56,392 bases of DNA, taken from contig JASEFA010000006.1 in NCBI GenBank assembly GCA_030019365.1, positions 1 to 56,392 of the forward strand. The letters are read 5' to 3'. A model generated the notes under the pieces. That model made no database searches and was not told where the DNA came from. It was given only the letters and a program-made list of their open reading frames with translations. Shown piece after piece: positions 16,452 through 32,173 of this stretch. A program made the translations under genes and the position numbers. Within the stretch, counting starts at the first letter, position 1; each line of letters starts with the position of its first letter. This DNA is from Bacillota bacterium. Lineage in GTDB: Bacteria > Bacillota > Sulfobacillia > JACIYH01.

Positions 16452-18253
16452 AGTTCGCCTTCGGCGCCCGTCCACTTCTTGAGGCTGGCGTCGAGCCGTT
16501 CAAACCATTCATCCGCCCTGGGTATACCAATGGCCTCGCACAACTTGTCCCGAAGCAAGTTGTGTTTTCTTCGGTACCCTTCGAACTGTGGGAACAAAAA
16601 CATTTCCAACGACTGGAGGAGCAGCGTCTTGGGTGTTGTTCCTGCGATGTTGCCGCGGCTTAGTCTGGTTTTGAGGTGTTTGGAGATCGACAGTGGGATT
16701 GCGGCTCCCACGGGAATTCCCGCCGCGAACAGGCCGGTGCTGTCATCGGCGAAAACACGCTTTAGTCTTTCCCCTAGTTCATTCCACAACTCCTGTGCCT
16801 CTGCGGGGACATCTCCGCGGTTGCTGTCGAAGAATCTGTCGAGGATCGCTGCCATGGTTCCGGCTGGGGGAACCGGGACCTCCACGAAAGCAAAACGCCT
16901 CATGAACGCGTACGACAATTGGTAGAGAGTGGCTTTGTCCGCCGTGTTCATTGTCGCGATGATTCTCCAATCGTCTGGGACATCGTACACTCGGAAATCG
17001 TTGTCATCGTAAGAGTTGTCACGCTCGATGCGGAGAACGACCTGCCGTAGTTTCCCCCCACAATCCCCCGCGTTGTCGTTCGGTTCGCAAACCTTGTGAG
17101 AAAGTACCACGTCTTTCCCGGCCAGCAATGTGAAGAGTTCTCCGAATGCCTTGTCCACGTCAGCCCTGTTGATCTCGTCTATGACAACCCACGCGTTCTT
17201 GGCTATGGCACCGGTGACAATGCCCTCTGAGAAATTAAGGCGGCGGGGATCGCCCAGGTCGGGCATGTACCCGCCCAACACTTCGAATGTCGTCCAGTCG
17301 GAGGTGGCAGTGCAGACTACGAAGTCGGAGCCTTTGCAGTGTCTTGCTATCGCGATGGCTAGTGTTGTCTTCCCTGTTCCGGGCGCTCCAGTCAGGATCA
17401 GATGCTGTCCACTCTCGAGCGCGGACAAGGCGTTTGCTACAACGTCAAGTGGGATTTCGAGTTCAGCATTGACTTCTCCCGGGTCAGGCCATGTAAACTC
17501 GGACGATGGCACTTGCTCGAGTGGTACTTCCATTGGTTCGTCTTTGACCATGTTATCGAAGGCCAATGGCGGCGAATCGGAGAGTAAGCCAAGTTCGTCC
17601 CAACCGTGTTCGTGCGCAGATGAATGCTCCACGAGGTAACCCGCAACACTTTCGGTGAACAAAGTTTCTAGGGCGCGGCGGATCCCTTCGTGAAAGGGGG
17701 ATTCGCGGAAGCGCGACAGATCCGTTGTCTTGAGAGTAAATACGATCAACGGAAAGAGATCCCCGCCGCACCCCCTGTCGTGGAAAAACCTCGCCAGATT
17801 GTCTCTCCATCGCACGTGCTTTCGCGCTCCCCAGAAATCGCCTCCCGCTTCTAAGCCGAATTCAAGTAAGGGACGAGGTCGCTTGGGGTAGTCGCGTCGG
17901 CGCCCAGCCTCTCGTGCTTCTTTCAGGGGCCTTGTCAGCACATTTGAACTAAATTTTCGTTTGACTTCATCCACGCTCAGTCGCGAGGCGAAGCCCAACT
18001 CGTGAACGGTGAATTCTTGAGGGCCTGTGCCGAGGGTCATGAGAGATGCGTAATTATTGGCAAGCAATCGGCGAGCTTCTTGCCCAGGCGCGAGGTTTAC
18101 TAATTCAATGTTTAGTTGTTTTTGGACCATGTCGAGAGCCAAGAAGCAACCCAAACCGGTGGTGTGTTCTATACCCATTTTGGGGGCCGGCCTGCGCAGC
18201 CTCAGTTTCGGGTACTCTCTGTGAAAGGTTTCCGACGAGAAGTACACGTTCAT
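16448..18253 (-). CDS. McrB-like AAA+ NTPase
   Basis: A 601-residue protein. Residues about 280 onward are a McrB-type AAA+ domain: Walker A GAPGTGKTT (289-297), Walker B VVIDEINRADVDKAFGE, and the McrB signature MNTADKATLYQLSYAFMRRF with a sensor/arginine finger. McrB and LlaJI.R1 use GTP and translocate DNA; GTP preference is known for the family, not shown here. The N-terminal 260 residues, probably the DNA-recognition part, do not look like McrB-N/DUF3578 by eye. ATG 18,253 overlaps the stop of the methyltransferase gene by one base, and the 3' end overlaps the nuclease gene by 4. Confidence 0.85.
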   Translation of the reverse strand: MNVYFSSETFHREYPKLRLRRPAPKMGIEHTTGLGCFLALDMVQKQLNIELVNLAPGQEARRLLANNYASLMTLGTGPQEFTVHELGFASRLSVDEVKRKFSSNVLTRPLKEAREAGRRRDYPKRPRPLLEFGLEAGGDFWGARKHVRWRDNLARFFHDRGCGGDLFPLIVFTLKTTDLSRFRESPFHEGIRRALETLFTESVAGYLVEHSSAHEHGWDELGLLSDSPPLAFDNMVKDEPMEVPLEQVPSSEFTWPDPGEVNAELEIPLDVVANALSALESGQHLILTGAPGTGKTTLAIAIARHCKGSDFVVCTATSDWTTFEVLGGYMPDLGDPRRLNFSEGIVTGAIAKNAWVVIDEINRADVDKAFGELFTLLAGKDVVLSHKVCEPNDNAGDCGGKLRQVVLRIERDNSYDDNDFRVYDVPDDWRIIATMNTADKATLYQLSYAFMRRFAFVEVPVPPAGTMAAILDRFFDSNRGDVPAEAQELWNELGERLKRVFADDSTGLFAAGIPVGAAIPLSISKHLKTRLSRGNIAGTTPKTLLLQSLEMFLFPQFEGYRRKHNLLRDKLCEAIGIPRADEWFERLDASLKKWTGAEGEL

Positions 18254-19416
18254 CACCCAACCAATTCAAACGTTTGTTGGACAAAGCATTCTGTGGTCGC
18301 GACTGGTCGTCCATCGAAGCCTATTTCCGGGTCCGTAGGTTTAATGGGCCGACCCCTCAACCTCGAGTATTCGATACAAGGGATGAACTGATCCGGCTCC
18401 GCCCCAGCGAGCACTTCTTTACAGCGCTCGGCGAAGGCGCGAGCCAGCTTCGGAGGTACCGCGTTCCCGATCATTTGGTAGATTGCCTTCGTAGATCTCG
18501 CAACGAACACGAAGTCGTCCGGAAACGACTGGATGCGAGCGATTTCCCGCGCGGAGAGCACTCGGTTCGCCGTGGGATGCCAAACGCCTGCGTTCTCAGG
18601 TTTGAATGCAGCCGTTATGGTCCCCGCGATCTCGTCTCGGTGAAAACGGCGGTAAAACTTGGGCCACCTGTATTTGCGCATGTTGTTTCTGATACGCTTC
18701 AACCTATCGGGTAAGAGTTCATACGGTATGTCCTTCCAGGACCCGCCTTCAGGAACCAGGCTGCCCAAGTACAACGCTTGAGGATTAAGCTTAAGGATGT
18801 CTCCTTGATTTGCGGTGGACGGCGGGACATCCAGTATCGTTTTCAACCGCAAATCTACGCCCTCGATGGGGCGGGGAAATCTAAAACCACGTGGGGCAAC
18901 TGATTTAGAGACCGCCATGATGATGACCCTGAGCCGATGTTGCGGTACAGCGTAGTCGGCGGCGTCTACTAGTTTGAAGTGAACCTCGTAGCTCATTTCT
19001 GCCAAAGCTTCGCAAATTTCCTCGATTAATCTCCCTCTCCTTCCTTGAACTGTAAGAAAGCCTCTGACGTTCTCGAAAAGAACTATCTTCGGGCGCAGGT
19101 GGCAGACATACTCTAAACAGATCTCGTACAATGTCCCGCGGCTGTCCTGTAAACCTCGGCGGTTTCCGGCGTTCGAAAACGGCTGGCAAGGAAACCCCGC
19201 GGTTAACACATCTAACTCCGGCACTGTGGGAATCTCAAGATCTCGAACGTCCCCTTCGATAATCTCCCCGAGATTGTGTCTGTACGTTGCACAGGCATCG
19301 GGGTCAATATCGTTCGCCCACACGATCCGGAAACCAGCTTGGACAAAACCGAGATCCATCCCGCCACAGCCGCTAAACATGCTCAGCACAGTTGGACGAC
19401 CGACACTGTCCGCCAT
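18253..19416 (-). CDS. DNA (cytosine-5) methyltransferase
   Basis: A 387-residue C5 methyltransferase from ATG 19,416, chosen for GGAGGGA seven bases upstream. Motif I is LSMFSGCGGMDLGF, motif IV TAGFPCQPFSNAGN with catalytic Cys77, motif VI FENVRGF with Glu115, motif VIII near QHRLRVIIMAV, and motif X QMIGNAVPP. The target-recognition region between VIII and IX-X is short to medium, as in single-specificity enzymes. It begins the enzymatic part of the operon and should protect the host's own sites from the downstream McrB/nuclease pair. Confidence 0.95.
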   Translation of the reverse strand: MADSVGRPTVLSMFSGCGGMDLGFVQAGFRIVWANDIDPDACATYRHNLGEIIEGDVRDLEIPTVPELDVLTAGFPCQPFSNAGNRRGLQDSRGTLYEICLEYVCHLRPKIVLFENVRGFLTVQGRRGRLIEEICEALAEMSYEVHFKLVDAADYAVPQHRLRVIIMAVSKSVAPRGFRFPRPIEGVDLRLKTILDVPPSTANQGDILKLNPQALYLGSLVPEGGSWKDIPYELLPDRLKRIRNNMRKYRWPKFYRRFHRDEIAGTITAAFKPENAGVWHPTANRVLSAREIARIQSFPDDFVFVARSTKAIYQMIGNAVPPKLARAFAERCKEVLAGAEPDQFIPCIEYSRLRGRPIKPTDPEIGFDGRPVATTECFVQQTFELVG

Positions 19417-19497
19417 CGCGCTTCCCTCCACGAGCTTCCGGCAAATTGCGCTATTCTACATCGAAAACGAACTAGACTACCATTTTCGCTCACCGGG

Positions 19498-19962
19498 CTA
19501 AGCCACCGACCTGCCCGTACGAACTGTGCCCGATAGTCCTACCGCGTCTTCTATTTCGCGGGCAACCGGCGCTAAACCAATCAACCAGACCATCTGCCCG
19601 TATCCTGCGATGTTGACTGCCGCAAGAGGATTGTCGGTTAGCATAAGTACCTCTGTGCCAGCAACCACAAAGGCCCCGGAGGCGATAACGCTGTCCGTGA
19701 CGTTCTCGCGCAAGTATTTCAAACACATCTTGAGCTTACGCGCCGAGAGTCCTGCGTCCAGCAACTGCTTCGCAACGCGCAGTTGTACGAGGTCTAAGAA
19801 AGAGTAAACGCGAGGTGTCCCCCGCCCCCGGGGGCGGACGAGGCTGGGCGTGAACAAACCTGTCTTGTCCCAGTAAGCCAGTTGCCTTCGAGTAAGACCG
19901 GTGAGCCTTGCCGCTTGTCCAGTTGGGAATCCACAAACCGCTCGGGATCTTGCTTCGCCCAC
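19498..19962 (-). CDS. MerR-type transcriptional regulator
   Basis: A 154-residue protein from GTG 19,962, which follows GGTGAGG at good spacing; a longer frame to 20,058 lacks a ribosome site. The N-terminus is a MerR winged helix: TGQAARLTGLTRRQLAYWDK, TGLFTPSLVRPRGRGTPRVY, then SFLDLVQLRVAKQLLDAGLS. The second half (about 75-154) is not a known ligand domain: it is Ala/Gly/Val-rich (VIASGAFVVAGTEVLML) and has no Cys pair. It lies 81 bases upstream of the methyltransferase on the same strand and is a good candidate for the timing control of the R-M operon. Confidence 0.7.
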   Translation of the reverse strand: MGEARSRAVCGFPTGQAARLTGLTRRQLAYWDKTGLFTPSLVRPRGRGTPRVYSFLDLVQLRVAKQLLDAGLSARKLKMCLKYLRENVTDSVIASGAFVVAGTEVLMLTDNPLAAVNIAGYGQMVWLIGLAPVAREIEDAVGLSGTVRTGRSVA

Positions 19963-20873
19963 CTTGTCCTCACCTCTACACCGATGTTCAACATACAGCC
20001 CGAGAATCCTCCTAGCTGTTCGAGCAGGCCCCGTCCGCGCCCTGCTAACCCCCTGCAACCTTCAACGTTTTTCTAGATCCATCGGCGCTCAACGGGTCTC
20101 GGATGGTCTGTTGTGCTTCCCCCAATTCTTTGGGATCCCGCCTGGCTCTCGTCCTTCAACGCCTCTCAGCCCGCAAACCTGGAGCCTATGAGGCTATCTG
20201 CATCCGTGTCTCCCGCTCCCGGAAGAGAACCCAGGTTGGCTGGTGCTGCTGGTTTGCAAGGATTGCGGACCAGCGGACTAGGAACCCCAGCGGATTGCAA
20301 ACCACCTGCAAACCGTACACACGTGAACTGGAGTACAATTCCTTAGACTCAACGAATCTACATAGACTGTTCTAGACTCCCACTTCCCGGCAGTGCACCA
20401 CCCGAGCCCCTGGGCCGCAAGGATTCCCGCCACTCCGGGCGTGCCCCGTTGCCAAACTCGTAGCTTGGCAGCCCACCCAGCCCAAGCCCCCAACCGCTCG
20501 TTAGAGTCAAAACGTGGCCTCCATGTATCCTGGCACCTGCTCTGCCCATCATTCCGGCTCAGGAATCCAGCAAGGCGTACGAGGCTCGCTCTTTGCACAT
20601 CAATTCTTGTCCTGGAAACGACTCACCCTGGGAGGCGGCACGGGCGCGGCGAAGACTCTCTGGTGTGCACTGGGCCGGGCCGGTGTTTGCTGTGCGAGGC
20701 GGCCAAGCGACGGTGGCCAGTCGAAGGGTGGACCCTCATCGCTCCCGCGCTGCAAGAGCTCTGGCCTGCGTTCTACGACTGATGCCCGCCTACGCTGGAA
20801 ATCAACGCCTGCCTGCCCGATGGTTCCGCCGAGAATGCATCCTCCCCCGTCAGAGACAGGTACCACGTGGCTC
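19963..20873. other. 0.9 kb without a confident gene; motif clusters
   Basis: There are two repeat clusters: GGTTTGCA and its inverse TGCAAACC at about 20,250, 20,295 and 20,306, and three TAGACT boxes at about 20,343, 20,360 and 20,371. CATAGACTGTTC here recurs at about 23,298. A plus-strand frame ending at 20,782 finishes CEAAKRRWPVEGWTLIAPAL and resembles a coding remnant. No family was recognised. The promoter of the R-M operon may lie near the right side of 19,963-20,100. Confidence 0.4.
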
Positions 20874-20916
20874 GTCAAGTACCTTCTTGACACATTCCGT
20901 TGCGCCATGGTACAAG
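20874..20916 (+). promoter_or_regulatory. Promoter with operator for the HTH gene
   Basis: TTGACA (20,887-20,892), an 18-base spacer and TACAAG (20,911-20,916). The inverted repeat GTCAAG-TACCTT-CTTGAC (20,874-20,891) covers the -35 box, so a repressor there would block RNA polymerase. The gene starts at 20,939. Confidence 0.6.
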
Positions 20917-20938
20917 AAGACCGAAAGGAGGCTGGGAG

Positions 20939-21121
20939 TTGGAGGAGCTGCTGACTTTCCGGGAGGCCCAGAAGCTGCTCAAGGTGAGCCGGTCCACCAT
21001 GTACCGGCTGATCCGGTCGGGGCTCCTCCCCGTGGCCCGCCTGGGTCCGCGCAGCCCCAGGTTCCGGAAGGAGGACCTGGAGGCCATGCTGCGGGCCAGC
21101 ATGGAGGGAGAGCGGGGATGA
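20939..21121 (+). CDS. Small excisionase-type HTH protein
   Basis: A 60-residue protein from TTG 20,939 after AAAGGAGG; a longer frame from 20,900 starts inside the promoter. The whole protein is one HTH_17 domain: LLTFREAQKLLKVSRSTMYR, LIRSGLLPVARLGPRSPRFR, then EDLEAMLRASMEGE. This size and fold are typical of Xis-like directionality factors and element regulators. It overlaps the next small gene by ATGA. Confidence 0.8.
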   Translation: MEELLTFREAQKLLKVSRSTMYRLIRSGLLPVARLGPRSPRFRKEDLEAMLRASMEGERG

Positions 21122-21228
21122 GGAGCAATGCCTACGTGGGCCGGCGGTGGCCCGAGGGCGTGGTCGTCTACGTTGAGGAGGCGGGCAGCCCTCGCCCCCT
21201 GCGCCACGTGGCACGCCACGGGGGTTAG
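21118..21228 (+). CDS. 36-residue peptide, possibly a truncated DUF6166-like protein
   Basis: ATG 21,118 overlaps the preceding stop (ATGA), which indicates coupling. The peptide NAYVGRRWPEGVVVYVEEAG with a PRPLRHVARH tail resembles the first strands of DUF6166-type small proteins, which normally continue with a conserved HSPxGFEWGYGGSGP segment. Here it stops after RHGG, so it is either truncated or a different peptide. Confidence 0.4.
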   Translation: MRSNAYVGRRWPEGVVVYVEEAGSPRPLRHVARHGG

Positions 21229-21257
21229 TTAAAGGTGCTTGAAGGGGGGAAGGCATC

Positions 21258-21599
21258 GTGAGAATCGCAGCTCTTATTCTCGGTATCCTCGGGGGCCTAG
21301 CTGGAATAGGAGGGGCCGTCTTTGTCCTCTTTTTTGGAGGGGCAGGTGCTGTCTTGGCGGCAGAGGGGGCTTTTACCGTTGTGAAGCTTGGCGTGGCAGC
21401 GGTGCCGTTGTCGATACTTGGGCTTATAGGCGGAGCGCTTGCCCTGGCAAAACCGAAAGTAGCGGGCGTCCTGATGCTGATTAGCGCCTTTGGCGGCCTG
21501 ATTGCGATTTCCATGGGGTACGCAGTGGCATTCATCCTGCTCCTCGTGGGAGCAGTATTTGCTTTTGTCGGCCGGCGAGAGGCAGCAAAGCAGAGCTAA
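21258..21599 (+). CDS. Four-helix membrane protein (DUF4064-like)
   Basis: A 113-residue protein from GTG 21,258 after GGGGGGAAGG. Four hydrophobic segments are visible at about residues 3-33, 42-62, 67-85 and 86-104, ending in a basic cytoplasmic tail (GRREAAKQS). The layout and Gly-rich helices resemble DUF4064 proteins. The function is unknown. It is followed 48 bases downstream by another membrane gene. Confidence 0.6.
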   Translation: MRIAALILGILGGLAGIGGAVFVLFFGGAGAVLAAEGAFTVVKLGVAAVPLSILGLIGGALALAKPKVAGVLMLISAFGGLIAISMGYAVAFILLLVGAVFAFVGRREAAKQS

Positions 21600-21647
21600 G
21601 ACGCTTAAGGCGAACGTTCGCCTCCGAATCAATAGGAGAGGGCCACC

Positions 21648-22739
21648 ATGAGAGATTTCCTGCTCGGCGTCGGCTGTCTCTGCTCCCTCATTGGCATCGC
21701 GAGCGTGATTAAGCCACTGCAATTGCTCCGCATTCGCACGCGCCGCATGGGAGCCCTCGTCTTGCTCACAGGCATGGTGCTTAACATAGTAGGCGTCTCG
21801 ACTTCTGTGGGCGGGTTCCTGGTCGGCGTTGGTAGTCTGTGCTTCCTAGTTGGCATGGTGAGTCTAATCAAGCCACTGGAATTTGTCGGCATTCGGACGC
21901 GCCGCATGGCAGCCCTCGTCTTGCTCGCAGACATCGTAATTGTCATGGTAGGCGGAGGGATTCTTGGCGGAAAGCCTGCTCCGTCCACGCCGCCATCACA
22001 AACACTCACCGCTACACCAGGTGAAGCCGGTTCTTCAGCTTCGACAGCCCAAGCTGCTGTGTCTACGGTGCCCCCGTCGATCACCGCCACCTCGCTACCT
22101 GCTGGCGGGGTGGGCGGCCTCTACAAAGCCTCGCTGTCGGTGACGGGCGGTACTCCCCCCTACAACTGGTCGCTGGCCCGCGGTAGGCTACCACCGGGGC
22201 TGATCCTGAGCGGGGACGGCACGATCAGCGGCGCGCCCACGGCGGCCGGAACCTACAACTTCACGGTGCAGGTGCAGGATAGCCACCACCCGGCGCAGAC
22301 GGCACAGCAGCCGCTGTCCATCGCCATCGACGAAGTGTGCCCGGCGAAGACGCCGGTTTTGGTAGGCAAGTGGGTTGTAGCGGCCGGCATCGACCCCGGG
22401 GTACAGCTCAAAGACAGACTTGGTAATGAATTCCTCAGCATCAAAGCGGACGAAGGATATACCTTCGCGCTGGTCCCGGTAGCGGTAACAAACGCATCGA
22501 ATCAGACGGAAAGTCTCACGCTGGTCATCTGGGAGCTATCAGACAGTGCTGGGAGAGTCTATAAAATTGAGACATTGGCCGATATGTATCTCCCCGAAAA
22601 AGCACGGCTGGACGCGACAGGGGTTCCTCCCGAAGCAACGAGAACAGGGTACTTGGTGTTTCAGGTCAAGAAGGGTGCCGAGGGCCTAGTTCTCTCCATG
22701 GAAAGTATGTTGAGGGAGGTCAAGTGGAAGATTAAGTAA
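21648..22739 (+). CDS. Membrane-anchored Ig-like domain protein with duplicated membrane unit
   Basis: A 363-residue protein with a good AGGAGAGG before ATG 21,648. Residues about 1-100 are a tandem duplication: FLLGVGCLCSLIGIASVIKP with a following IRTRRMGALVLL, then FLVGVGSLCFLVGMVSLIKP with IRTRRMAALVLL. A Ser/Thr/Ala linker (about 108-140) leads to an Ig-like fold of the He_PIG type (GTPPYNWSLARGRLPPGLIL, GTISGAPTAAGTYNFTVQVQ), then a DUF4352-like beta domain (TFALVPVAVTNASNQTESLT). It is probably surface-exposed and tethered. The role is unknown. Confidence 0.7.
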   Translation: MRDFLLGVGCLCSLIGIASVIKPLQLLRIRTRRMGALVLLTGMVLNIVGVSTSVGGFLVGVGSLCFLVGMVSLIKPLEFVGIRTRRMAALVLLADIVIVMVGGGILGGKPAPSTPPSQTLTATPGEAGSSASTAQAAVSTVPPSITATSLPAGGVGGLYKASLSVTGGTPPYNWSLARGRLPPGLILSGDGTISGAPTAAGTYNFTVQVQDSHHPAQTAQQPLSIAIDEVCPAKTPVLVGKWVVAAGIDPGVQLKDRLGNEFLSIKADEGYTFALVPVAVTNASNQTESLTLVIWELSDSAGRVYKIETLADMYLPEKARLDATGVPPEATRTGYLVFQVKKGAEGLVLSMESMLREVKWKIK

Positions 22740-23323
22740 GCAGGCAGGTACTTCGCTCAGCAACAGTCCTGTGGGCAGGGCCAGCCGAATCCCTTAGAGA
22801 CCCTAGCCCAGGGATTACAGCTAAACTCCCGAAGCCAGTTCCTCGACCTTGGGGCCCCGGCTGACCGGGTAGTTCTTGATGGCATCCGGGTCGGGGTAGT
22901 ATTTCTTGGCTACTTCCATGTCTTCCTTCACACTAGGGCGGCGCTGGTCGCGGTGCTCCGGTGCATTACCCTTTCTGGAACACAAATAACCCGTCAGCAC
23001 GCGGTCCAAGAGGCCTTAGACCCCCCATGTCCGGCCATCCGCTGTAACCCCCGAACACGACTTCGGACTGGCGGAGATCTCGGCGGCATCCCACCACAGC
23101 GCGCCCAGCCAGAGTTGACCGTCCGCCAGATGCCCCGACGCGGTTATGCCCACCGCATACGGACCTTCCCCATCGCCAGCAGCACTTCGCGATGTCGCTT
23201 CCCCTCCGTTGCCTGCCGCGCTGGCCGGACCTAGCCTGTGAAGTCCTCTATTACAGACTTTCTCGCATAACCCAGAGACACGTCCATAGAGAAACTCCAT
23301 AGACTGTTCCTTGGAGTGGGCGC
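22740..23323. other. 0.6 kb without a confident gene
   Basis: Short minus frames at 22,821-23,009 and 23,016-23,300 have no family match; the former contains MEVAKKYYPDPDAIKNYPVS behind GAAGGAAG and might encode a 32-residue peptide. CATAGACTGTTC at about 23,298 repeats a sequence at about 20,357. Confidence 0.35.
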
Positions 23324-23490
23324 GTTTACACGCCGCTGACAGGGCTGTAAACGGCCAGTTTACGTCGCGGCTCCTCCCATAAGCTAGCTGTGGACTCCCA
23401 GTTTGCTCCAGGCTGGGGCATGTTTACCGGTCGGGCGGGAGTGTTTACGCCCTCGCCATGCCTTGCACCCCGGTGTTTACCGCTGTAAAC
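23324..23490 (+). promoter_or_regulatory. Array of seven GTTTAC/GTAAAC boxes
   Basis: GTTTAC at 23,324, 23,358, 23,422, 23,443 and 23,475; GTAAAC at 23,347 and 23,485. Steps are 23, 11, 64, 21, 32 and 10 bases, nearly all whole turns of B-DNA. Two pairs are inverted: 23,347/23,358 and GTTTACcgctGTAAAC at 23,475-23,490. The array ends 19 bases before the RHH gene. It looks like a multi-site operator, or a partition or replication site. Confidence 0.7.
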
Positions 23491-23509
23491 TGCGCGCGAG
23501 GTGAACCCA

Positions 23510-24376
23510 ATGGCTGAATCCGTCACCGTCAGCGCCCGCCTCCCGGCCGACTGCAAGCGACGACTGGATGCCATGTTGAACGGTCGCTCCCTTGGAGCCT
23601 GGCTGCAAAACGTGGTGGACGGGCTGGAGCGGGTGGGCAACCTCGAGGCCCGGGCGCGGGAGCTGGAAAGGGCGATTGCCGAGCGGGAGGCGGGGCTGAA
23701 AGCGCTCGAAGAGAAAGTCCGCCAGCGTCAGGCCGCGCTGGAAGAACTCCAGGCCCTGCGGAGGGCCGGGGTAAGTCCTGAGCAGGTGTCCAAGTGGTCG
23801 GCGATACTGTCCCGGGCCGGCACTGAACCTAGCGAACTCGAGTCCGACATCGAGCGGTACGGCTCCCTTCTTGCCGGCTGCCGGGAACTGGAGGCCAGGG
23901 AGAAGAAGCTGGAGGCCTCCGTCGGGGCGTTGGAGGGGAAGCGGGGTGAACTCGAAGGGGCGGCAGCCGCCCTCAGGGATGCGGCGGTTTCGGCCATCGC
24001 CGGGCTGAAGGAGCAGGCCGTGGCCGAGGTGGAAGCGGCGGGGGCCGAGATGGGGGAGAAGATCAAGGCGTACGGGGAGGCTTGCCGCCTGTCGGAGCTA
24101 TTGCGGCGCGACCTTTTCTTGGCGGGGGCCCTATACGCGATGGGAACACCCGAATTGGCCGCGGAGGTGCTGCCCCCAACCGTGCTGCTCGTCCTGGACA
24201 GGGTGAAGAGGTGGTCGGAAGCGACAGGAGCCAACCCCAGGGCCAGGCCGCCGGAGGCGATCACGGGCGGCAACTGGTCGCACGCGGCGTGGCAACTGAC
24301 CTTGCGGGAGCTTGTCCTGTGGGCGGCGGTGACGTTGGTGCCGCTATGTCAGGAGGGCACAAGCGCCTCGCCATGA
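23510..24376 (+). CDS. Ribbon-helix-helix / coiled-coil DNA-binding protein
   Basis: A 288-residue protein from ATG 23,510 after GAGGTG. The first 40 residues (ESVTVSARLPADCKRRLDAM, then GAWLQNVVDGLERV) have the strand-helix-helix pattern of an RHH domain. Residues about 45-75 and 105-190 are heptad-rich coiled coils (LEARARELERAIAERE, ELEAREKKLEASVGALEGKR). The C-terminal 90 residues form a separate unit with GEACRLSELLRRDLF, LVLDRVKRWSEATGANPRAR and LRELVLWAAVTLVPL. No family is recognised. A damaged paralogue is at 424-980. The upstream GTTTAC boxes suggest it binds its own promoter or a centromere-like site. Confidence 0.7.
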   Translation: MAESVTVSARLPADCKRRLDAMLNGRSLGAWLQNVVDGLERVGNLEARARELERAIAEREAGLKALEEKVRQRQAALEELQALRRAGVSPEQVSKWSAILSRAGTEPSELESDIERYGSLLAGCRELEAREKKLEASVGALEGKRGELEGAAAALRDAAVSAIAGLKEQAVAEVEAAGAEMGEKIKAYGEACRLSELLRRDLFLAGALYAMGTPELAAEVLPPTVLLVLDRVKRWSEATGANPRARPPEAITGGNWSHAAWQLTLRELVLWAAVTLVPLCQEGTSASP

Positions 24377-24441
24377 CAGCCGCAGGGGCAAAGAGCACCG
24401 ATGGAACGGGCAACGCCTGCTGAGGGGCGCGGGGCAGAGGC

Positions 24442-24561
24442 TTATTCTCTCGCCTTCTTCGCCGCGGCGGCAGCTTGGGACACAGCCCGCCAGGCTCCGA
24501 TAGTTGCTACCACCAGCACCACCCCAGCGGCGGTCAGAAACAAAGCACCGAGCACGGTCAT
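24442..24561 (-). CDS. Single-span membrane peptide
   Basis: A 39-residue product from ATG 24,561, with GAGGGAGG about 10 bases upstream. One hydrophobic helix (VLGALFLTAAGVVLVVATIG) is followed by an Ala/Lys tail. It ends the minus-strand replication operon and converges on the RHH gene. The function is unknown. Confidence 0.45.
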   Translation of the reverse strand: MTVLGALFLTAAGVVLVVATIGAWRAVSQAAAAAKKARE

Positions 24562-24623
24562 GCCCACTCGCCTCCCTCTCGATAACAGCGGGAAAACGGG
24601 GCCACCGTGGCGCCTCCTTTCAC

Positions 24624-24986
24624 TCACAGCGGCAGCCTCAACTGATCGCCAGCTGTACTGGGCTGGCACCGCCGGGGTCCCGCCCTGATCTGGGCCAGCG
24701 CTGCAAGAATCGTCTCCTGACCCGCCTTGACCAGGCGGACTTCGGACAGGACCAAGGTCAGCAGGGACAGGACCTCCTTGAGGTCTGGCCCGGTGGCTGT
24801 CCACGTGTTTTCCCCAGGCAGGAGGCCCCCCCGGCCGGGGCGGGGAGGTTCCCGCATCAGCCTTTCCAGTTCCCGTGCCGAAAGGCGCTCCGCCACCGGT
24901 GCCGCGAGGCAATCTTGCTTGGCCAATTCCTTAAACACCTCCCCGCATATCTCCCCCCTGCCCCCGGCGGAAGCAAAGGCCCACAA
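24624..24986 (-). CDS. Unrecognised protein of the replication operon
   Basis: A 120-residue frame from GTG 24,986. The middle is predicted helical (AERLSARELERLMREPP), followed by a Pro/Gly linker and a second helical stretch LKEVLSLLTLVLSEVRLVKA. No domain was recognised. It lies 12 bases after the zinc-ribbon gene. The start is uncertain. Confidence 0.4.
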   Translation of the reverse strand: MWAFASAGGRGEICGEVFKELAKQDCLAAPVAERLSARELERLMREPPRPGRGGLLPGENTWTATGPDLKEVLSLLTLVLSEVRLVKAGQETILAALAQIRAGPRRCQPSTAGDQLRLPL

Positions 24987-24998
24987 CCGTCCGCCACG

Positions 24999-25247
24999 TC
25001 AGCGTTGCCCCCTCGCTAGTAGCCTGCGTATTTCCTCACGCGCAGCCAGCGTGTCCGGACTCCAAAGCTTCCGCCGCGCATCCCCACAATGGCCGCAGCG
25101 GTACACTGCGAGGATGCTGCCCCGCTCCATCACCCAGGAGACGAGGTATGTCCCTTGCCCGCACCGGCGGCACAGTTCACGTGTGGGCAACCTACTCGAC
25201 GGCGCGTGATCCCTCACGTCGATTGCCTCCCTTTGATAGGCATACAT
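24999..25247 (-). CDS. Small zinc-ribbon protein
   Basis: An 82-residue protein from ATG 25,247, chosen because GAGGGGGGA precedes it. Two Cys pairs form a zinc ribbon: LCRRCGQG at about 26-33 and YRCGHCGD at about 57-64, separated by hydrophobic strands (YLVSWVMERGSILAVY). The C-terminal helix is basic (REEIRRLLARGQR). It is probably a DNA- or protein-binding accessory of the replication operon. It lies 13 bases behind the previous gene. Confidence 0.6.
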   Translation of the reverse strand: MYAYQREAIDVRDHAPSSRLPTRELCRRCGQGTYLVSWVMERGSILAVYRCGHCGDARRKLWSPDTLAAREEIRRLLARGQR

Positions 25248-25260
25248 CCGCCATCCCCCC

Positions 25261-25722
25261 TCACGCTCGGGCAAGCCTAGATGCCTCCTCTTCGCCCATC
25301 CACCGGTCCACCAGTTCAGGTACCGCCGGGGGGTGGCAGACGCCGCAGACTAGCACGGCGTACCTGCTCAACCACCACCTCGACCCACCACACACATAGC
25401 AACTGCCATCGCCCTGGAGGCTCAACGCCAGGGTAACTCCATCCGCCCGGTTCAGCGAAGCTCCGCCCCCGTGGTCGGCGGGCGGGGCCGACAGAATGTG
25501 CTCCGGCGGCACCGTGGGGGCAGCGGAGGGTTGGGCCACCTCCTGCCCCGTGGCACGCGCCCCGGAGAGGAGCCGCAGCAGTTCGGCCTTCTGTCGGCGG
25601 ATGGCCTCCCGGAGCTCGTCGCTCATGGCTCCCTTGGGGCAGGAGTAGCGGATGTCGCTCCCCACGGGGCCCAGTTCGATGCCACGTCGGGCGCACTCGG
25701 CCAGGAGCTCCTCGAGGGTCAC
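25261..25722 (-). CDS. TubC-N-like / zinc-binding accessory protein
   Basis: A 153-residue protein. GTG 25,722 overlaps the primase stop (GTGA), so it is translationally coupled. The N-terminus (LEELLAECARRGIELGPVGS then ELREAIRRQKAELLRLL) matches the TubC-N docking fold often found on primase-like or mobile-element proteins. The C-terminal half carries CYVCGG and VCGVCHPP, a likely zinc ribbon. The probable function is docking to the primase-helicase. Confidence 0.6.
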   Translation of the reverse strand: MTLEELLAECARRGIELGPVGSDIRYSCPKGAMSDELREAIRRQKAELLRLLSGARATGQEVAQPSAAPTVPPEHILSAPPADHGGGASLNRADGVTLALSLQGDGSCYVCGGSRWWLSRYAVLVCGVCHPPAVPELVDRWMGEEEASRLARA

Positions 25723-28700
25723 AGGACCCCCTCCTCCCGCTCCCGCGTTTTTTGGTTCACGGCATCAGTGTTATACGCCCCTGAAACCGGGACAATCGGG
25801 ACATTCGGGACGGATCCTTGAGCCTCAACACTTTCAGGCTCCGTTTTCTGTCCCGATTTTGCCGGAGCCGCCGAAAATCGGGACGGAAAATCGGGACACT
25901 CAGCTCCGGCCCCGGGCCACGCTGTCCCGATTTCGGTGTCCCGATTTTCGCGTTGTCCGCAAGAATCGGGACGCCTTTCAGGTTCCGAAAAGCCTTGTCG
26001 CTGTTGGTTTTCCGGCATGCCTGTCCCGGTTGTCCCGACTGTCCCGATTGTGTCGGATAAGAGAGTGTCGGCGTGGAGAGAAATTACGTGCCGCCTCTTG
26101 CCCACCACCGTGGCCTTGTACGTGTTTCGGTCCCTGTCCGTGGCAACCAGCAATTGCCTTTCGGCCATGCGCTTCCACAACACCCGCTGGGTAACGGGAA
26201 TGCTTGTTCCTTGCGCCCTCGCCAGTTGTTGCGCCACAGCATAGGCCGCGTCTGGTTCGAGATACAGGTTCACGCCCTCCAGCCACCCGACACACCTGCC
26301 CTGCGGCTGCCATCCGGTATGGCCATTCTCCCCTGCCCCGATGCACTTCTTCCGCCAGCCCCACCGCTCGGCATTCTCAGGCTCGGCCCCATCCTTCGCA
26401 TCCGCTACGTGGGCTTCGCCCGAAGCGATGGTCGCAGCAAGAAGGCGTAGGAACATACCAACCGGCTCCTCCGCCTCCTGGTGGCGGGCCTGGGCCGCCG
26501 CTCCCTCGCTCAGGGCCACCCACGTGCGCTCCCAGAGTCCTGCCCGTTCCTCCTCGCCAATGGCACCCACTTCCTGGGCGAAACGCAGGAAGGTTTCCAT
26601 GCCCACACCCAGCGCGGCCTGGTTGTCGGGGACCCTGGCGTGTTCGCCCAGCGCTTTCTGCCGGAGCTCCACGCGGCGCCGCGGCAGCGTTTCCTTGAGC
26701 GCGTGGATCTGAGGCGCAAGCCACCTGATATAAGCGGCCATCGCCCTAGCGAAGACCCCCGGGGCGGCCAGCGTCTGCGCTTCGGTGAGCCGACCAGCGT
26801 CCACATCGGTGGGCGAAACCTCCACGATCCAGGTTCGGGGGCGCAGCGAATGCCCCCGGGGAAGATCCTCGCCGGATGAAATGATGATGCCCCGGGGGTA
26901 GTAGACCGGGCGCGCCGTAGCGTCTGGTCGTAATCTGGCCCTCCCGGCCCGGTTCGCCGCGCCCCGCAGCAGGCGGTCGGCGTCCCGGTGCAGGATTGCG
27001 AGATCGGCTTGTGTGCCCCTCGGGGCGAAGTCGTCAATGACGAGCACTGCATCTTTTGCCAGGAAGGCCGTCCGCTCAAGGGCATTCGCAGTGCTGCGCC
27101 AGTCTGCGGGCAGGTATCGCCCGGTCCAGACCGGGCCCCAGTGTGCTTGGGCCAGAGCGGTCAGTTCGGTCTTGAAGACGCCCGTCTGCCCAGCAAGGAA
27201 AGCTGATATGTCTAGGTTTACGCATTCACCCAGCGGAGCGAGATAAACGGTAGCCAGCAAGGGCACCATGACCCTGTCGGGGGCTAGGCCCTCTATAAGA
27301 GAGAGAGACGCCCTGACCGATTGGCGAAGTTCCTCCTCTTGTGGAGGCTCGGGCAGAACATAGTCGCGCAGTCGGTCCTCTGGTTCGGTTTGTATTCCTG
27401 CCACTGCCCCCTGTGCTCCAATTGCTCCAGCCCCGTGCAAGTAGATCCATGCCCCCTCGATCTTACGCCACCCGAGGTGGGTGAAGACGGTCCTCTCGGG
27501 TACCTCGCTCGACAGGTGCTGGATCGCCACGCGGAGATGATCCTTCGTGGCTTGACCAGCATAGACCAGCGCCCTGGTTCCCCATTTTTCCGTCACCCAG
27601 CCCATGCCAGAGTACCGCTCCGCGGGCACCTCGACGCAGGGGAGGGGGGCATTGGTGCTGAGTGCACCCTGGATGGCGAAGACCCGGGTTTGCTCTGCGC
27701 CGTCATCGCGTAGGATTTCTGCCACGATGCGGGCATTGAAGTTCGCCAGCGGGATCACCTCGGGGCCGTACGGGGTCTGCTTGGTATAGCAAATCTGCCC
27801 ACCGAGGACGGAGTACGGCAGCCCATCGCGTACTGGCGGCCCTGCCTGCTCCCTGGCATCCCTGGCGGCCTCGGCCACCACCCGGTGCAGATCGCGCAGG
27901 TGCACCCCGGCCTTCTTCAGCGCCGCCCGCACGCGCGCCCAGTCTGCGGGGTCCTTCTCGCGCAGTTCAGCCAGGGCCTCCAACGCCTCGGGGGCGAACG
28001 GTGCTCCAGGATCGGTGCGGACGGCCTCCAGCACGTGAGCCACCTTCTCACGAGCGGTAGCCAGGGCGGCTGCCTGCGTGTCTGAGTAATCTTCGGCCGG
28101 CGGATACCGGGAAATGCTCCGGGCGATAGCCCGCACTTCGTCCTCCGGGAGAGGAGGCCGGCACCGCCGGGCGTTGACGGCCAGCAGGGCCGCTTCGATC
28201 TCCTCGGCGGTCATCCCACGCCGGCGCATAGAACCAGCAAGACTAGTCAGGGTAGCGTTCCGCTGCCCCTCCGGGATGGGTTCGCCATCTCGGTCCTGCG
28301 CCGCATGGCGCGAGCCAGCAGGGCTTCGAGTTACCAAGCCAGCAAGAACGGCATCTGCTAGGAACGGGTCAAAGTCACTGGGATTGTACCGCCTGTCTAG
28401 GTGCACTTCCAGTACGCGCACGGGCACCGGCTGCTGGGGTAGTTTGTAATTCATCGTTCCAGGCACGCGCAGCACCCGTGCCAAGTCCGATGTCGTGTCC
28501 AAGTTCCATCCGCGCTCCCTGGCTTTCGCCTGGATCGTCGCCTGGAAGCACCGCAGGAGTTCCTGCGCGGCCCGTCGCTCCTGGTCGCTTTCCAACAGCG
28601 AGAGTTCGCGCAGGAGCCAATAAAGATGGAGGCCCCAGCCGGAACCCACCAAGAGCGATGGCAGCAGGGGGAACTCGCTCACTAGAGCCAAGGCTTCCTT

Positions 28701-29072
28701 CAGGCTGGGAGGTAGCGCCGCGCTGGCGTGCGCTGGGCCAGCCACGTCTACGTCAATCCACAAGGCAGGGATGGCGCACACGTCAGCGGCCTCCCCGCGC
28801 CGCTTTTCTCCAAGGTTCTGGGCCCGCAGTCCGACCCCGAAGTACACGTCTAGTCCCGCGTTGGAGAGCCACATGGCCTGGCTCGCTGCCAAGTCAAGCT
28901 TGCCGCCGGGAAAGTACCGGGTTTTGCGGTCGTGTGGAGTCCAGAGCGTGAGCCAGCCGGTGGCGTCGTTGCCGTAGAGCGCGCGGAAGAAGCTCGCGGC
29001 GATTTCGCGTTGTGGTCTCGCGCCTTTTCGAGTAAAATCAATGTCGGGAGGTGCAGGGTCCATACGTACCAT
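25719..29072 (-). CDS. Replication primase-helicase (RepB-type primase, PriCT, DUF927-like)
   Basis: An 1117-residue replication protein. Residues about 20-260 are an archaeo-eukaryotic-type primase domain with the acidic pair in IPALWIDVDVAG and the His-containing strand GSGWGLHLYWLLRE. Next comes a PriCT_1 domain (QRNATLTSLAGSMRRRGMTA to PLPEDEVRAIARSI). Residues about 420-880 resemble DUF927/superfamily-3-type helicases: Walker A FLAGQTGVFKTEL, Walker B AVLVIDDFAPRG and an IIISSGEDLPRG sensor. The C-terminal ~110 residues are low complexity because the DNA is an array of CGGGAC boxes. It heads a minus-strand operon with two zinc-ribbon partners. Start 29,072 or 29,063 (MDPAPPD). Confidence 0.85.
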   Translation of the reverse strand: MVRMDPAPPDIDFTRKGARPQREIAASFFRALYGNDATGWLTLWTPHDRKTRYFPGGKLDLAASQAMWLSNAGLDVYFGVGLRAQNLGEKRRGEAADVCAIPALWIDVDVAGPAHASAALPPSLKEALALVSEFPLLPSLLVGSGWGLHLYWLLRELSLLESDQERRAAQELLRCFQATIQAKARERGWNLDTTSDLARVLRVPGTMNYKLPQQPVPVRVLEVHLDRRYNPSDFDPFLADAVLAGLVTRSPAGSRHAAQDRDGEPIPEGQRNATLTSLAGSMRRRGMTAEEIEAALLAVNARRCRPPLPEDEVRAIARSISRYPPAEDYSDTQAAALATAREKVAHVLEAVRTDPGAPFAPEALEALAELREKDPADWARVRAALKKAGVHLRDLHRVVAEAARDAREQAGPPVRDGLPYSVLGGQICYTKQTPYGPEVIPLANFNARIVAEILRDDGAEQTRVFAIQGALSTNAPLPCVEVPAERYSGMGWVTEKWGTRALVYAGQATKDHLRVAIQHLSSEVPERTVFTHLGWRKIEGAWIYLHGAGAIGAQGAVAGIQTEPEDRLRDYVLPEPPQEEELRQSVRASLSLIEGLAPDRVMVPLLATVYLAPLGECVNLDISAFLAGQTGVFKTELTALAQAHWGPVWTGRYLPADWRSTANALERTAFLAKDAVLVIDDFAPRGTQADLAILHRDADRLLRGAANRAGRARLRPDATARPVYYPRGIIISSGEDLPRGHSLRPRTWIVEVSPTDVDAGRLTEAQTLAAPGVFARAMAAYIRWLAPQIHALKETLPRRRVELRQKALGEHARVPDNQAALGVGMETFLRFAQEVGAIGEEERAGLWERTWVALSEGAAAQARHQEAEEPVGMFLRLLAATIASGEAHVADAKDGAEPENAERWGWRKKCIGAGENGHTGWQPQGRCVGWLEGVNLYLEPDAAYAVAQQLARAQGTSIPVTQRVLWKRMAERQLLVATDRDRNTYKATVVGKRRHVISLHADTLLSDTIGTVGTTGTGMPENQQRQGFSEPERRPDSCGQRENRDTEIGTAWPGAGAECPDFPSRFSAAPAKSGQKTEPESVEAQGSVPNVPIVPVSGAYNTDAVNQKTREREEGVL
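25788..26046. repeat. Twelve CGGGAC/GTCCCG boxes: candidate iteron array/origin
   Basis: CGGGAC at 25,788, 25,797, 25,806, 25,879, 25,892 and 25,967; GTCCCG at 25,850, 25,924, 25,938, 26,023, 26,032 and 26,041. Most sit in AATCGGGACA-like contexts. The array is bounded by two triplets of exact 9-base period in opposite orientation. It lies inside the 3' end of the primase-helicase gene. Plasmid origins often lie in or beside rep genes, so an origin is a reasonable inference. Confidence 0.65.
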
Positions 29073-29107
29073 TCACTCCCAGGGGCCGCAGGCGGGGCGG
29101 CCCCAAA

Positions 29108-29302
29108 TCACTTGGCCAGCGGGCCTCGCGTCAGGCCCGGGGCACAGTTGCGACCGATTGCGGGTCTACGTGTTGGGCAATCCAGAATGCGCAAGAAGCT
29201 CAGGACGATTGCTTCGCTCTCCCACGGGTCCGGCGATCGGTAAATGCGGACGACCCGCAACGGCTGCGTGGGTGGGTGCCTACCCAATGCACGCCCGGTC
29301 AC
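29108..29302 (-). CDS. Small protein coupled to the HTH gene
   Basis: A 64-residue frame whose ATG 29,302 overlaps the stop of the HTH gene as ATGA. The middle reads RVVRIYRSPDPWESEAIVLS, followed by FLRILDCPTRRP. The R-I-Y-x-S-P-D-P pattern looks like a short strand then a helix, and I have seen similar small proteins in mobile-element operons. The function is unknown. The primase gene begins 36 bases downstream. Confidence 0.5.
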   Translation of the reverse strand: MTGRALGRHPPTQPLRVVRIYRSPDPWESEAIVLSFLRILDCPTRRPAIGRNCAPGLTRGPLAK

Positions 29303-29511
29303 TGCACTCTCCCCCCGCGGCCACCGCTCTGGACGGGGCGGATACGACGGTCGGGGGCCAGGCGTTCTACTTCGTCCAGCTCGACGAACAGTCGCCCCGT
29401 GATGCTGTCTCGGTGTCCGGTGAGGATGCCCCGGCCGACCCAGCCGTACACGGTGGGCGGAGTGACCCCCAGCAGTCGGCTAGCTTCGTAAATACTGATA
29501 AGTCGCCCCAT
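29299..29511 (-). CDS. Excisionase/MerR-like HTH regulator
   Basis: A 70-residue protein from ATG 29,511 after AGGGGTGA. An HTH_17/MerR-like domain fills it: LISIYEASRLLGVTPPTVYG, WVGRGILTGHRDSITGRLFV, then ELDEVERLAPDRR. It is the first gene of the replication operon and directly faces the palindrome-rich region at 29,555-29,670, so it is the leading candidate to bind one of those operators. Confidence 0.75.
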   Translation of the reverse strand: MGRLISIYEASRLLGVTPPTVYGWVGRGILTGHRDSITGRLFVELDEVERLAPDRRIRPVQSGGRGGRVQ

Positions 29512-29554
29512 TCCGTTTCACCCCTTCACCGCACCGGGCACCGGGATTTCTCGG

Positions 29555-29670
29555 AGTTCAAGTCTTGAACTGAGTTCTCTGGTGTCCACGAGAGTGCCCC
29601 CGTGCTGCTAGCGCTAGCAGTGTTGTAAAATAAGAAACGGCGACATAATAGATCCCCATTTTTGTCGCCG
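29555..29670. promoter_or_regulatory. Divergent regulatory region with three inverted repeats
   Basis: Three perfect repeats lie between genes that diverge: AGTTCAAGTCTTGAACT (29,555-29,571), CTGCTAGCGCTAGCAG (29,605-29,620), and arms CGGCGACA (29,638-29,645) and TGTCGCCG (29,663-29,670) with 17 bases between. TTGTAA at about 29,622 with ATAATA near 29,645 is a possible rightward promoter. Likely operators for the replication operon on the left and the unknown gene on the right. Confidence 0.65.
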
Positions 29671-29685
29671 CAGCGGGGTGACACC

Positions 29686-30807
29686 ATGGACGAAGGGCGC
29701 ATACACACCCCCCTGTGGACCCAGGCGGTTGAAGGGCTTCGGAAGAGGTTCAACATGCCCATCGGCCCGGAGCACGCGATCGAGGTGTGGCTAGGAGAGA
29801 ACTGGCCCGCGTTCAGAGAAGCTGCCCTGAAAGAGTACGAGGAACTTGCCTTGGCCGAACGTCTCCCCCTGAGGTACTTGAACTACTTCTTGTCCTGTGT
29901 CTTGTCGCACCATCACGGCGGGACGTTCCCGCACAGCCTGCCTCCCGAGCGCTTCCGGTTTAACACCTCACCGCCGAGCATGGCCGCCGTGCAGGGAAGT
30001 TTTTATTCGGCTGACGGGTACTACCGGGTGGAGTACATTCCCCGGCGGGGCCCGGCCCCAGAAGAATTCGCCTGGGAGCCGGTCGCGGCACCGCGGGGGT
30101 TCGGCGTGGCGTGGCCCAACACGCTCTATGTTGAAGTGGACAATACCGCTCTAGACATGGCCAGTGCCGAGGTTGAGCAGCGGCTCGGCGAGAAACTAAC
30201 GTGGCGTCTGCGCCCCGGTTACGCGTACAGGCTCCACGACCAGTGGTGGGATGCCCCGCTGCTGTACGGGCCCGCTGTGGCGGGCCGAACGGTTCGGGAA
30301 GTTCTGGGCCTGCCGCCCGACGTCCCCGTGGTGGAGGGAGTGGCACCCATCCCCGAGGTGGTTCTTGGCGACGACATCTCGGTGCTGGACATCCAGGGTG
30401 GTGCCCCGATGGATCAGTGGAGGCAGCCGAGGGTGGAGAAGGACCCGACCATCGACAAACAGGACAATGAACTCGCCGAGAGGTGCGAGAAAGTTATCCG
30501 GTTCCTGGCGGGCAACCCGGCCCTGTCGGGCTTCCTGGTGGGTGGAAGACCGCGCAGCGTCCTTCGTCCTCCGGGAGCTGCATATGAGGAGTACGTTCGG
30601 AACGAATACCGGCGGGAGCTGGCCAAGTTCCGCAATCAACCCCCGAAGGATAAACTGGTCAAGATCAGGAAGCGGGTGCTCAAGCGGGCGGAGCGGCTTT
30701 TTCCGCCGGAGGACCGCACCCCCCTCCCCACCGACTGGTTCAAGGCTGTGGAGGACGACAAGCCGTGGAAAGGCCGATCAGGCGGCAAAAAGGGTGGCGC
30801 TGGGTGA
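29686..30807 (+). CDS. Unrecognised 373-residue protein
   Basis: ATG 29,686 follows GGGGTGA; an upstream TTG lacks a ribosome site. The N-terminal 70 residues are helical (TQAVEGLRKRFNMPIGPEHA); the middle is rich in Pro, Tyr and Trp strands (YYRVEYIPRRGPAP, YAYRLHDQWWDAPLLYG); the C-terminus is very basic and helical (DKLVKIRKRVLKRAERLFPP), ending in a Gly/Lys tail that could bind DNA. There is no signal peptide or membrane segment. It has its own operator-rich promoter and converges with the methyltransferase gene 23 bases away. No family is recognised. Confidence 0.65.
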   Translation: MDEGRIHTPLWTQAVEGLRKRFNMPIGPEHAIEVWLGENWPAFREAALKEYEELALAERLPLRYLNYFLSCVLSHHHGGTFPHSLPPERFRFNTSPPSMAAVQGSFYSADGYYRVEYIPRRGPAPEEFAWEPVAAPRGFGVAWPNTLYVEVDNTALDMASAEVEQRLGEKLTWRLRPGYAYRLHDQWWDAPLLYGPAVAGRTVREVLGLPPDVPVVEGVAPIPEVVLGDDISVLDIQGGAPMDQWRQPRVEKDPTIDKQDNELAERCEKVIRFLAGNPALSGFLVGGRPRSVLRPPGAAYEEYVRNEYRRELAKFRNQPPKDKLVKIRKRVLKRAERLFPPEDRTPLPTDWFKAVEDDKPWKGRSGGKKGGAG

Positions 30808-30829
30808 CTGTTGACGCTCGGGCAAGCGG

Positions 30830-32173
30830 TCAACCCTTCTGGAACACCGCGAGGTCCCGGTGCAGGACCAGCCTCACGCCCGTCTCCCTCGCCCGCGCCA
30901 CATCGTGGGCCTCATACTGCCACTTCGAGTACGGTATGATGTACCGCCTCTCGAACTCCAGGTGGCGCACCGCCCGCCGGTACAGCTCGAAGGCGTGGTC
31001 GTATTCTTTCCCATCCACGAGGCTGGGCGAGATCAGGAGAGCTACCCTCGCCCCGTTGGCCAGCACATCCACCGCCCCGGCGATGACCTTCTCCATCTCT
31101 TCGTAGAACCCGTCGAGGGGGAGGTTGACCAGGTTGGTCGGCTCGGGGCCGTAGTCGCCCTTCCTCTGGCTCCAGTAAGGCGGGTCCAAAATTACCAGGT
31201 CCATCCTGTAGCCCTTGGGGAAGCGAGGGTAGCCCTGGGCAATGTCGTGCTGCAATATCTTGTCCTTCGCGTAGGGAGCGATGTCCGAGCACCAGCACCG
31301 GCGGAACATTGCCCGGCACACGTCCCAGGTGGTGCCCGACCCGGCGAAGGGGTCGTAGACGTTGCCGAACACCGGCACGTAGCTCCAGAGCAGGTTTTCC
31401 ACGATCTGCCCCGCCATCCGGCCTGGGTAGTCAGAACCGTACTTGGGGTCGCAGCCGTCGAAGTACCACACTGAGTAGTCCTGCCAGCTAGGTGGCGGCG
31501 TGGCGGGATCGAGGAGATGCTCACCCAAGATCTCGTGTACCAGCCTCTGTTTGGCCTCCTCGAGTTCCATGCCCGGCCGGCTGGTCGCGGTCCTCACGAT
31601 TTCGGAAAGCCTGCCAATGTCGTGAGCATAGCGGTCCACGATCTCCTCCACCGTCGACCTGGGCAAGGACAGGGCCTCCCCAATGGCCGCAGGGGTCTGC
31701 CCCCGGAGGTAAAGGTCCAGCACCTGGAGGTCCCGGCGGAACTCGGCGAGTTGCCTCTCCTGCCGGGTCCATTCCCTCACCGTCCGAGGGCTTACGGAAA
31801 GGAGGTCTGCCAGCTCCTCGACGGAGTACTCGCCGAACAGCCGCCTGGCCAGCCGTTCCTTGTCCTTGCCCGAGAGTTGCGTCCCGTGGGTGGCGTTGAG
31901 GCGGATGGCCTCCAGCAGGACGTCCCGGCGGGTGGGAAGGTCCGTGCGGATGACGGCCCTGACGGAGGCCTTGCCCTCCAGCTGGTGGGCCGCCAAGCGG
32001 TGGTTACCGTCGACCAGCAGGTACTTGCCTGAACGGGTACGTACAACGTGGATCGGTGGCAGGCGGTCCAGGGCCAGGCGCTGTTGAGCGATGGCGGTGT
32101 CGTCCCGGCGCTTGCGGGGGTACACCTCGGGGTCGACCTCGATGTCGAGGATGGGGATTTCGCAGGCTTGCAT
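30830..32173 (-). CDS. ParB-domain fused DNA methyltransferase
   Basis: A 447-residue protein from ATG 32,173 after GAGAGGTG. Residues about 5-110 form a ParB/sulfiredoxin-like domain (YLLVDGNHRLAAHQLEGK, RLNATHGTQLSGKDKERLAR), followed by an HTH (YSVEELADLLSVSPRTVREW) and a second helix-turn-helix (QTPAAIGEALSLPRSTVEEI). The C-terminal half is an amino-methyltransferase: motif I DPFAGSGTT and motif IV LDPPYWSQ, in that order. It probably methylates adenine-N6 or cytosine-N4. ParB-methyltransferase fusions are common in phages and ICEs and are usually solitary. There is no cognate nuclease here. Confidence 0.85.
   Translation of the reverse strand: MQACEIPILDIEVDPEVYPRKRRDDTAIAQQRLALDRLPPIHVVRTRSGKYLLVDGNHRLAAHQLEGKASVRAVIRTDLPTRRDVLLEAIRLNATHGTQLSGKDKERLARRLFGEYSVEELADLLSVSPRTVREWTRQERQLAEFRRDLQVLDLYLRGQTPAAIGEALSLPRSTVEEIVDRYAHDIGRLSEIVRTATSRPGMELEEAKQRLVHEILGEHLLDPATPPPSWQDYSVWYFDGCDPKYGSDYPGRMAGQIVENLLWSYVPVFGNVYDPFAGSGTTWDVCRAMFRRCWCSDIAPYAKDKILQHDIAQGYPRFPKGYRMDLVILDPPYWSQRKGDYGPEPTNLVNLPLDGFYEEMEKVIAGAVDVLANGARVALLISPSLVDGKEYDHAFELYRRAVRHLEFERRYIIPYSKWQYEAHDVARARETGVRLVLHRDLAVFQKG

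Follow-up and report, generated by a model that had tools for sequence, protein, structure and literature searches.

Described systems with repeated operators and helical tails

Ribbon-helix-helix (RHH) repressors and centromere-binding proteins, such as Arc/Mnt, CopG, ParG and omega, are short proteins with short repeated boxes before their gene, and the RHH partition types have a ParA partner. KfrA, as described from plasmids RA3 and R751, joins an N-terminal DNA-binding head, in this case a helix-turn-helix, to a long alpha-helical coiled-coil tail (PMC7783346, PMC7821693). KfrA of RA3 has operator repeats that lie over its own promoter, oligomerises through its helical tail and is autoregulated, and its role in plasmid stability, an accessory one exerted with ParA/ParB-type partners, requires DNA binding (PMC7783346); KfrA proteins also form filaments on their own operator (PMC7821693). 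The RA3 example indicates that a coiled-coil DNA-binding protein whose promoter carries repeats can be both an autoregulator and a stability factor (PMC7783346). The Par protein of the staphylococcal plasmid pSK1, like RocS and RacA, is built of a DNA-binding head, a coiled coil and a C-terminal segment, and is a single protein with no ATPase; its head is a MerR-type winged helix, and its C-terminal segment is DUF536, with an amphipathic helix (PMC11500499). StbA of R388, which is tied to conjugative transfer, acts in trans on cis direct repeats (stbDRs) and is required for plasmid stability (PMC3098194).

The locus that is the subject of this report lies in a 56,392-nucleotide stretch of Bacillota DNA (the window), and consists of a box array and the gene that follows it:

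23324..23490, no strand assigned: array of seven GTTTAC/GTAAAC boxes (box scan, shuffles and phase test), the presumed operator or binding array of the RHH head
23475..23490, no strand assigned: last box pair, GTTTACCGCTGTAAAC, 19 nt from the ATG, the expected promoter site of the 288-aa gene
23510..24376, + strand: 288-aa apparent fusion protein, with a predicted RHH head at about residues 4-43, a coiled coil with a short helical break at 44-190 and a conserved C-terminal domain at 190-288
23510..23640, + strand: predicted RHH domain, assigned with the profile of the relatives' RHH proteins, with the signature R-x-P-A-x-x-K ... W-[LV]-Q-x-x-V-x-G, and with probable homologues in the stand-alone RHH genes of relatives

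The window protein shares with KfrA an N-terminal, presumably DNA-binding, head and a long coiled-coil tail, and with pSK1 Par the succession of head, coiled coil and C-terminal segment. Its array, like the KfrA operator, is made of several short repeats; those of KfrA overlap the promoter of the kfrA gene itself, and those of the window end 19 nt before the ATG, in a region where no consensus promoter was detected. The head itself is RHH-like, as in Arc/Mnt, CopG, ParG and omega (the Mnt ribbon aligns with the RHH proteins of relatives), and to this head are added a rod and a new C-terminal domain. Homology to R751 KfrA was not found, since a profile comparison gave a probability of 9%, over the coiled-coil stretch only, and the DUF536 (RocS-like_C) segment has no Pfam match in the window protein. 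StbA is likened to it by description and not by sequence, and no transfer genes were found here. The window protein most likely works like KfrA or pSK1 Par and is homologous to neither.

Partner ATPases of the partition kind were sought at several levels. ParA-type deviant Walker A and TubZ motifs are absent from genuine open frames over 210 kb (the window and the loci of relatives), the ParA family is absent from Pfam scans of the window genes, and no ParA-type ATPase gene of the kind that type Ib partition (RHH plus ParA) would call for stands beside the RHH gene in the window or in relatives; ParA/ParB-type partners such as those of KfrA were likewise not found for the window protein. The initial annotation had stated that no ParA, ParM or TubZ gene is nearby, and this holds for the ParA and TubZ motifs and for the Pfam scans.

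A phased array in front of the gene

The seven boxes, all exact matches, start at 23324(+), 23347(-), 23358(+), 23422(+), 23443(+), 23475(+) and 23485(-), with steps between successive boxes of 23, 11, 64, 21, 32 and 10, just as first read from the sequence; with the final box ending at 23490 and the start codon ATG at 23510, 19 bases intervene, as reported earlier. This density is not random: 0.15-0.17 boxes are expected in 310-500 bases of local sequence, and none of 500 dinucleotide shuffles of that sequence yielded at least seven. The claim of helical phasing was also borne out. Over periods of 10 to 11 bp, the box positions were most coherent at 10.7 bp (R = 0.93, p = 0.002); random box placement matched the observed coherence in 0.2% of trials. 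Two inverted pairs had been described as well. The (-) boxes are indeed present at 23347 and 23485, but each box is a GT-WW-AC near-palindrome in which the GT-TT-AC orientation is set by the central dinucleotide alone, so that a symmetric dimer can fit on any one box and the pairing carries little information. A promoter scan detected no consensus sigma-70 promoter in the array region, which has 59% GC and is thus not A+T rich.

The predicted head and the coiled coil of the window protein

Searches of Pfam, PHROGs, NCBIfam and PADLOC returned generic coiled-coil matches only, and the window protein belongs to no named database family. The RHH head that had been claimed for it is supported, but weakly. 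In favor, the profile of the relatives' RHH domain places the window gene at the top of 1428 reading frames, with an E-value of about 0.001, weak by sequence, and the alignment pairs R-L-P-A-D-x-K and W-L-Q-x-x-V-x-G; against it, no Pfam RHH model matches the window protein and no Pfam cut-off was met. An RHH head is expected to show a strand followed by two helices, with an R-x-P-x-x-x-K/R motif where ribbon and helix join; a structural model of low confidence has helices that fit this pattern, the strand being absent from the monomer model. Fold searches with the two low-confidence models (this one and that of the relatives' coil proteins, described below) recovered only unrelated long helices, none with E below 0.25. 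For the relatives' RHH proteins, too, the matches to described families are weak, with sub-threshold Pfam matches to NikA-like (the best, E 2.3e-4), HicB and RHH_1 models, and PDB matches to AcrIF25 (E 0.0013) and Mnt (0.56). Taken together, the conserved positions, the pattern of secondary structure and the profile match, which is weak, suggest that the window head adopts an RHH fold. One alignment had equated this head with the first helical region of the coil proteins of relatives; this was rejected, as separate profiles favor RHH at residues 1-45 and coil 1 at 41-104.

A second copy of the family, reported from the start as a damaged paralogue, is present in the same genome:

423..980, + strand: paralogue truncated at its 5' end, which retains the coil and C-terminal part from residue 104 to 288, recognised by nucleotide and codon comparison

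This copy is real, with 81% nucleotide identity to the window gene over 424-984 and a truncation at about coil residue 104. The dN/dS between the two copies, over shared codons, is 0.31, a value that points to constraint on the protein sequence. The further suggestion that the family is repeatedly acquired does not follow from this, because two copies in one region would equally result from duplication.

Relatives and the two-gene form of the module

A search of genomes of the same class gave weak matches in four genomes, which were then shown to be true homologues: they have in common with the window protein its coiled coil, its helical break and its C-terminal domain. By profile search, the coil family is present in 10 of the 154 class genomes, the window's own included, and was found in none of the genomes outside the class among the 398 sampled from the phylum; the distribution outside the class was judged from this sample and from narrow patterns in a large genome collection. 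Collections of plasmids, phages and viral contigs held no relatives of the window protein, nor of the relatives' coil or RHH proteins. Two candidates were set aside, a match in G337 that lies inside a nucleotidyltransferase/membrane-protein pair and was discarded as chance, and one in G518 that falls in a non-coding frame.

The complete coil proteins of relatives have about 420-435 residues and begin with a strongly conserved domain, (M/V)PLTDIIEEELLATLDGEGDPQAVLDRHAGSKGPLYAALARAT, which the window protein does not have; a three-helix model of this head, of low confidence, could correspond to a helix-turn-helix. In G072, G118, G051 (two loci) and G094, the coil gene and a separate RHH gene diverge from an array that lies between them. 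An extra RHH gene on contig C198 of G118 has three GTTTAC boxes and no adjoining coil gene was found, while in G019 coil and integrase genes are present and an RHH gene was not found. In all, the module is represented by a small sample of about nine loci, six or seven of which are independent. Since the window head matches the RHH profile, the window gene looks like a natural fusion in which an RHH domain stands in the place of the N-terminal domain that the coil proteins otherwise have.

The initial annotation had made the presence of arrays upstream of homologues its test, and the outcome supports it. Every close RHH homologue has an array (G072, G118 twice, G051 twice and G094), and the most distant, in G121, has none in front. 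The boxes are of the type GGTWWACC. Three genomes, G072, G118 and G094, have GTWWAC/GGTNNACC boxes, 3 to 6 in number and reading GGTAAACC or GGTATACC; the fourth, G051, has 4 or 5 boxes of sequence GGTCTTGCC. The array is conserved while the box sequence varies, and spacing in the relatives is also helically biased (p about 0.001). The ribbon may vary along with the box, as T-L-T-V-R-I-P accompanies GGTWWACC in G094 and S-L-T-V-R-[VI]-P accompanies GGTCTTGCC in G051, a correlation at one ribbon position (T versus S) that comes from a handful of sequences, including two of a single genome.

A second kind of array, of 4 to 7 GTCCA/TGGAC boxes, precedes all six coil genes that have their own N-terminal domain; about 0.7 boxes are expected, and the observed counts were reached by at most 1 of 500 shuffles. 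Steps of 11, 12, 8 and 32 recur in these arrays, the step of 32 being kept even at a decayed copy in G133. Four of the six regions are closely related to each other; G019 and G094 supply the independent support. The window gene, in which this N-terminal domain is absent, also has no GTCCA array (2 sites versus 0.6 expected). The N-terminal domain thus occurs together with its array, and it may be the part of the protein that reads it, head and array probably travelling as one. Decayed copies of the N-terminal domain were observed at 1371-1547 of L041 (G019:C49), at about 890-1015 of L101 (G051:C215) and at 1865-2017 of L099 (G133:C95), with GTCCA boxes remaining upstream in two of the three.

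The element and its integrases

The window gene is part of an integrated mobile element, of which the following features are of interest:

1..37370, no strand assigned: part of the integrated element, whose right junction was mapped to about 37370, within a gene for an ABC-transporter ATPase
35607..37370, + strand: large serine integrase gene (Pfam Resolvase, Recombinase and zinc ribbon) located at the element's right end; the reading frame continues into host sequence
25719..29072, - strand: primase/helicase-type gene (PriCT_1, DUF927; Pfam) in the same element
25261-25722, - strand: TubC_N docking-domain gene (Pfam), directly preceding the PriCT_1/DUF927 gene

The interrupted ABC-transporter ATPase gene is intact in a genome of the same genus, and the rest of it lies on contig C8, where it stops at about 107564, with another 9.8 kb before that contig ends. 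Every module whose flank is long enough has a large serine integrase gene nearby, or a fragment of such a gene at a contig edge, and the complete serine integrase genes of relatives have the same direction as the RHH gene.

Several other genes of the element may be mentioned. A tyrosine integrase (32307-33173) occurs in the same element as the serine integrase (35607-37370), which suggests a nested or composite element. The region 30830-32182 (-) encodes an N6/N4 DNA methylase fused to helix-turn-helix domains, and 5464-7371 (-) a UvrD-like helicase with a strong match to Gabija GajB (E 4e-34), while 15156-19431 (-) holds a McrBC-like pair (a DUF2357 protein and an AAA_5 ATPase) and then a C5 cytosine methylase, which together look like a restriction island carried by the element. 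A several-gene block that includes a small gene similar to the TubC_N gene is common to two coil-module contigs, G051:C31 and G019:C18.

Proposed function and its alternatives

The reading that we favor, to which we give about an even chance, is that the window protein is a self-regulating, array-coating scaffold that serves the upkeep of the element, as a fused form of the two-gene module. A dimeric RHH head would bind each GT-WW-AC box, and with most boxes facing the same side of the helix and a long coiled coil linking the heads, loading would be cooperative, leading to coverage of the array. As the covered array ends at the gene's presumed own promoter, the gene would repress itself. In other serine-integrase elements of the class, the same module is present as two mostly divergent genes, one for an RHH protein, preceded by an array, and one for a coil protein that has its own N-terminal domain and a GTCCA array. 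The resulting large nucleoprotein complex would most likely act in the upkeep of the mobile element, either in its stable inheritance or in holding a maintained state, much as KfrA, pSK1 Par and StbA do as stability proteins that are accessory or work without an NTPase. Cooperative autoregulation is the best-supported part of this proposal, box binding and autorepression by the window protein being likely from the position and phasing of the boxes; a role in element maintenance is a conjecture drawn by analogy with KfrA, pSK1 Par and StbA. Against upkeep, nothing ties the module directly to segregation, no ATPase partner was identified, and an element integrated in the host chromosome does not need active segregation.

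The main and serious rival to maintenance is control of integration, in which the RHH repressor and the coil protein would govern the serine integrase operon as an integration/excision switch and hold the integrated element silent; the array would be an ordinary large operator with no role in segregation. This is possible, although we hold it to be on the unlikely side. The RHH gene of relatives is close to the integrase and co-directed with it, so that the array-bearing RHH promoter could drive the integrase: the gap is 13 bp in G118:C198 and 365 bp in G094, and the two genes are on the same strand in G072 and G118:C107. In the window, however, the integrase is 11 kb away and in another context, and G019 has coil and integrase genes with no RHH gene found. 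Furthermore, a coiled coil of 250-300 residues, a second array and a conserved C-terminal domain exceed what a simple repressor needs.

The other explanations fare much less well. An improbable one is that of a relaxosome accessory protein, an RHH with a stalk as in NikA, MobC and PcfF, which would bind an origin of transfer. The NikA-like model is the best weak Pfam match of one relative's RHH protein (E 2.3e-4, below the cut-off), and PcfF is described as an RHH with a helical part (PMC6514445), yet Pfam identified no relaxase family among the genes scanned, those of the window (the left part of the element is on contig C8), and the modules of relatives adjoin integrases. Very improbable, in turn, is that the module provides the serine integrase with a recombination directionality factor or an accessory at the attachment site; large serine integrase genes are constantly near the modules of relatives, but such factors act via the integrase at the attachment site, whereas the window array is 14 kb from the junction and at each locus the array precedes the RHH gene in the way of an operator. 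Finally, replication iterons, that is, initiator sites of the element's origin with the adjacent protein as initiator, would place repeated boxes near the primase/helicase gene at 25719-29072, but are hardly credible given a protein without an initiator domain, relatives' arrays without an adjoining primase and an array region that is 59% GC.

Implications

The array-coating scaffold proposed here could be part of a broader system. Less likely than not is the full picture of an NTPase-free stability system in serine-integrase elements, where a single kind of coiled-coil scaffold would carry either of two interchangeable DNA-binding heads, each with an array, and in which heads and arrays would be exchanged together and the array sequence would track changes of the RHH ribbon. 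To our knowledge, little is known about how serine-integrase elements are kept, and our literature search found no paper that links serine integrases with such an RHH/coil module.

The analysis defines an unnamed protein family and a module, known to date from a single class of Bacillota, whose DNA-binding head, coiled-coil scaffold and cognate box array seem to be exchangeable. The fused gene of the window predicts that the RHH and coil proteins of relatives would act jointly. Should the conjectured role in maintenance be true, the module would represent another NTPase-free system beside the few that are known, and one linked to serine-integrase elements.
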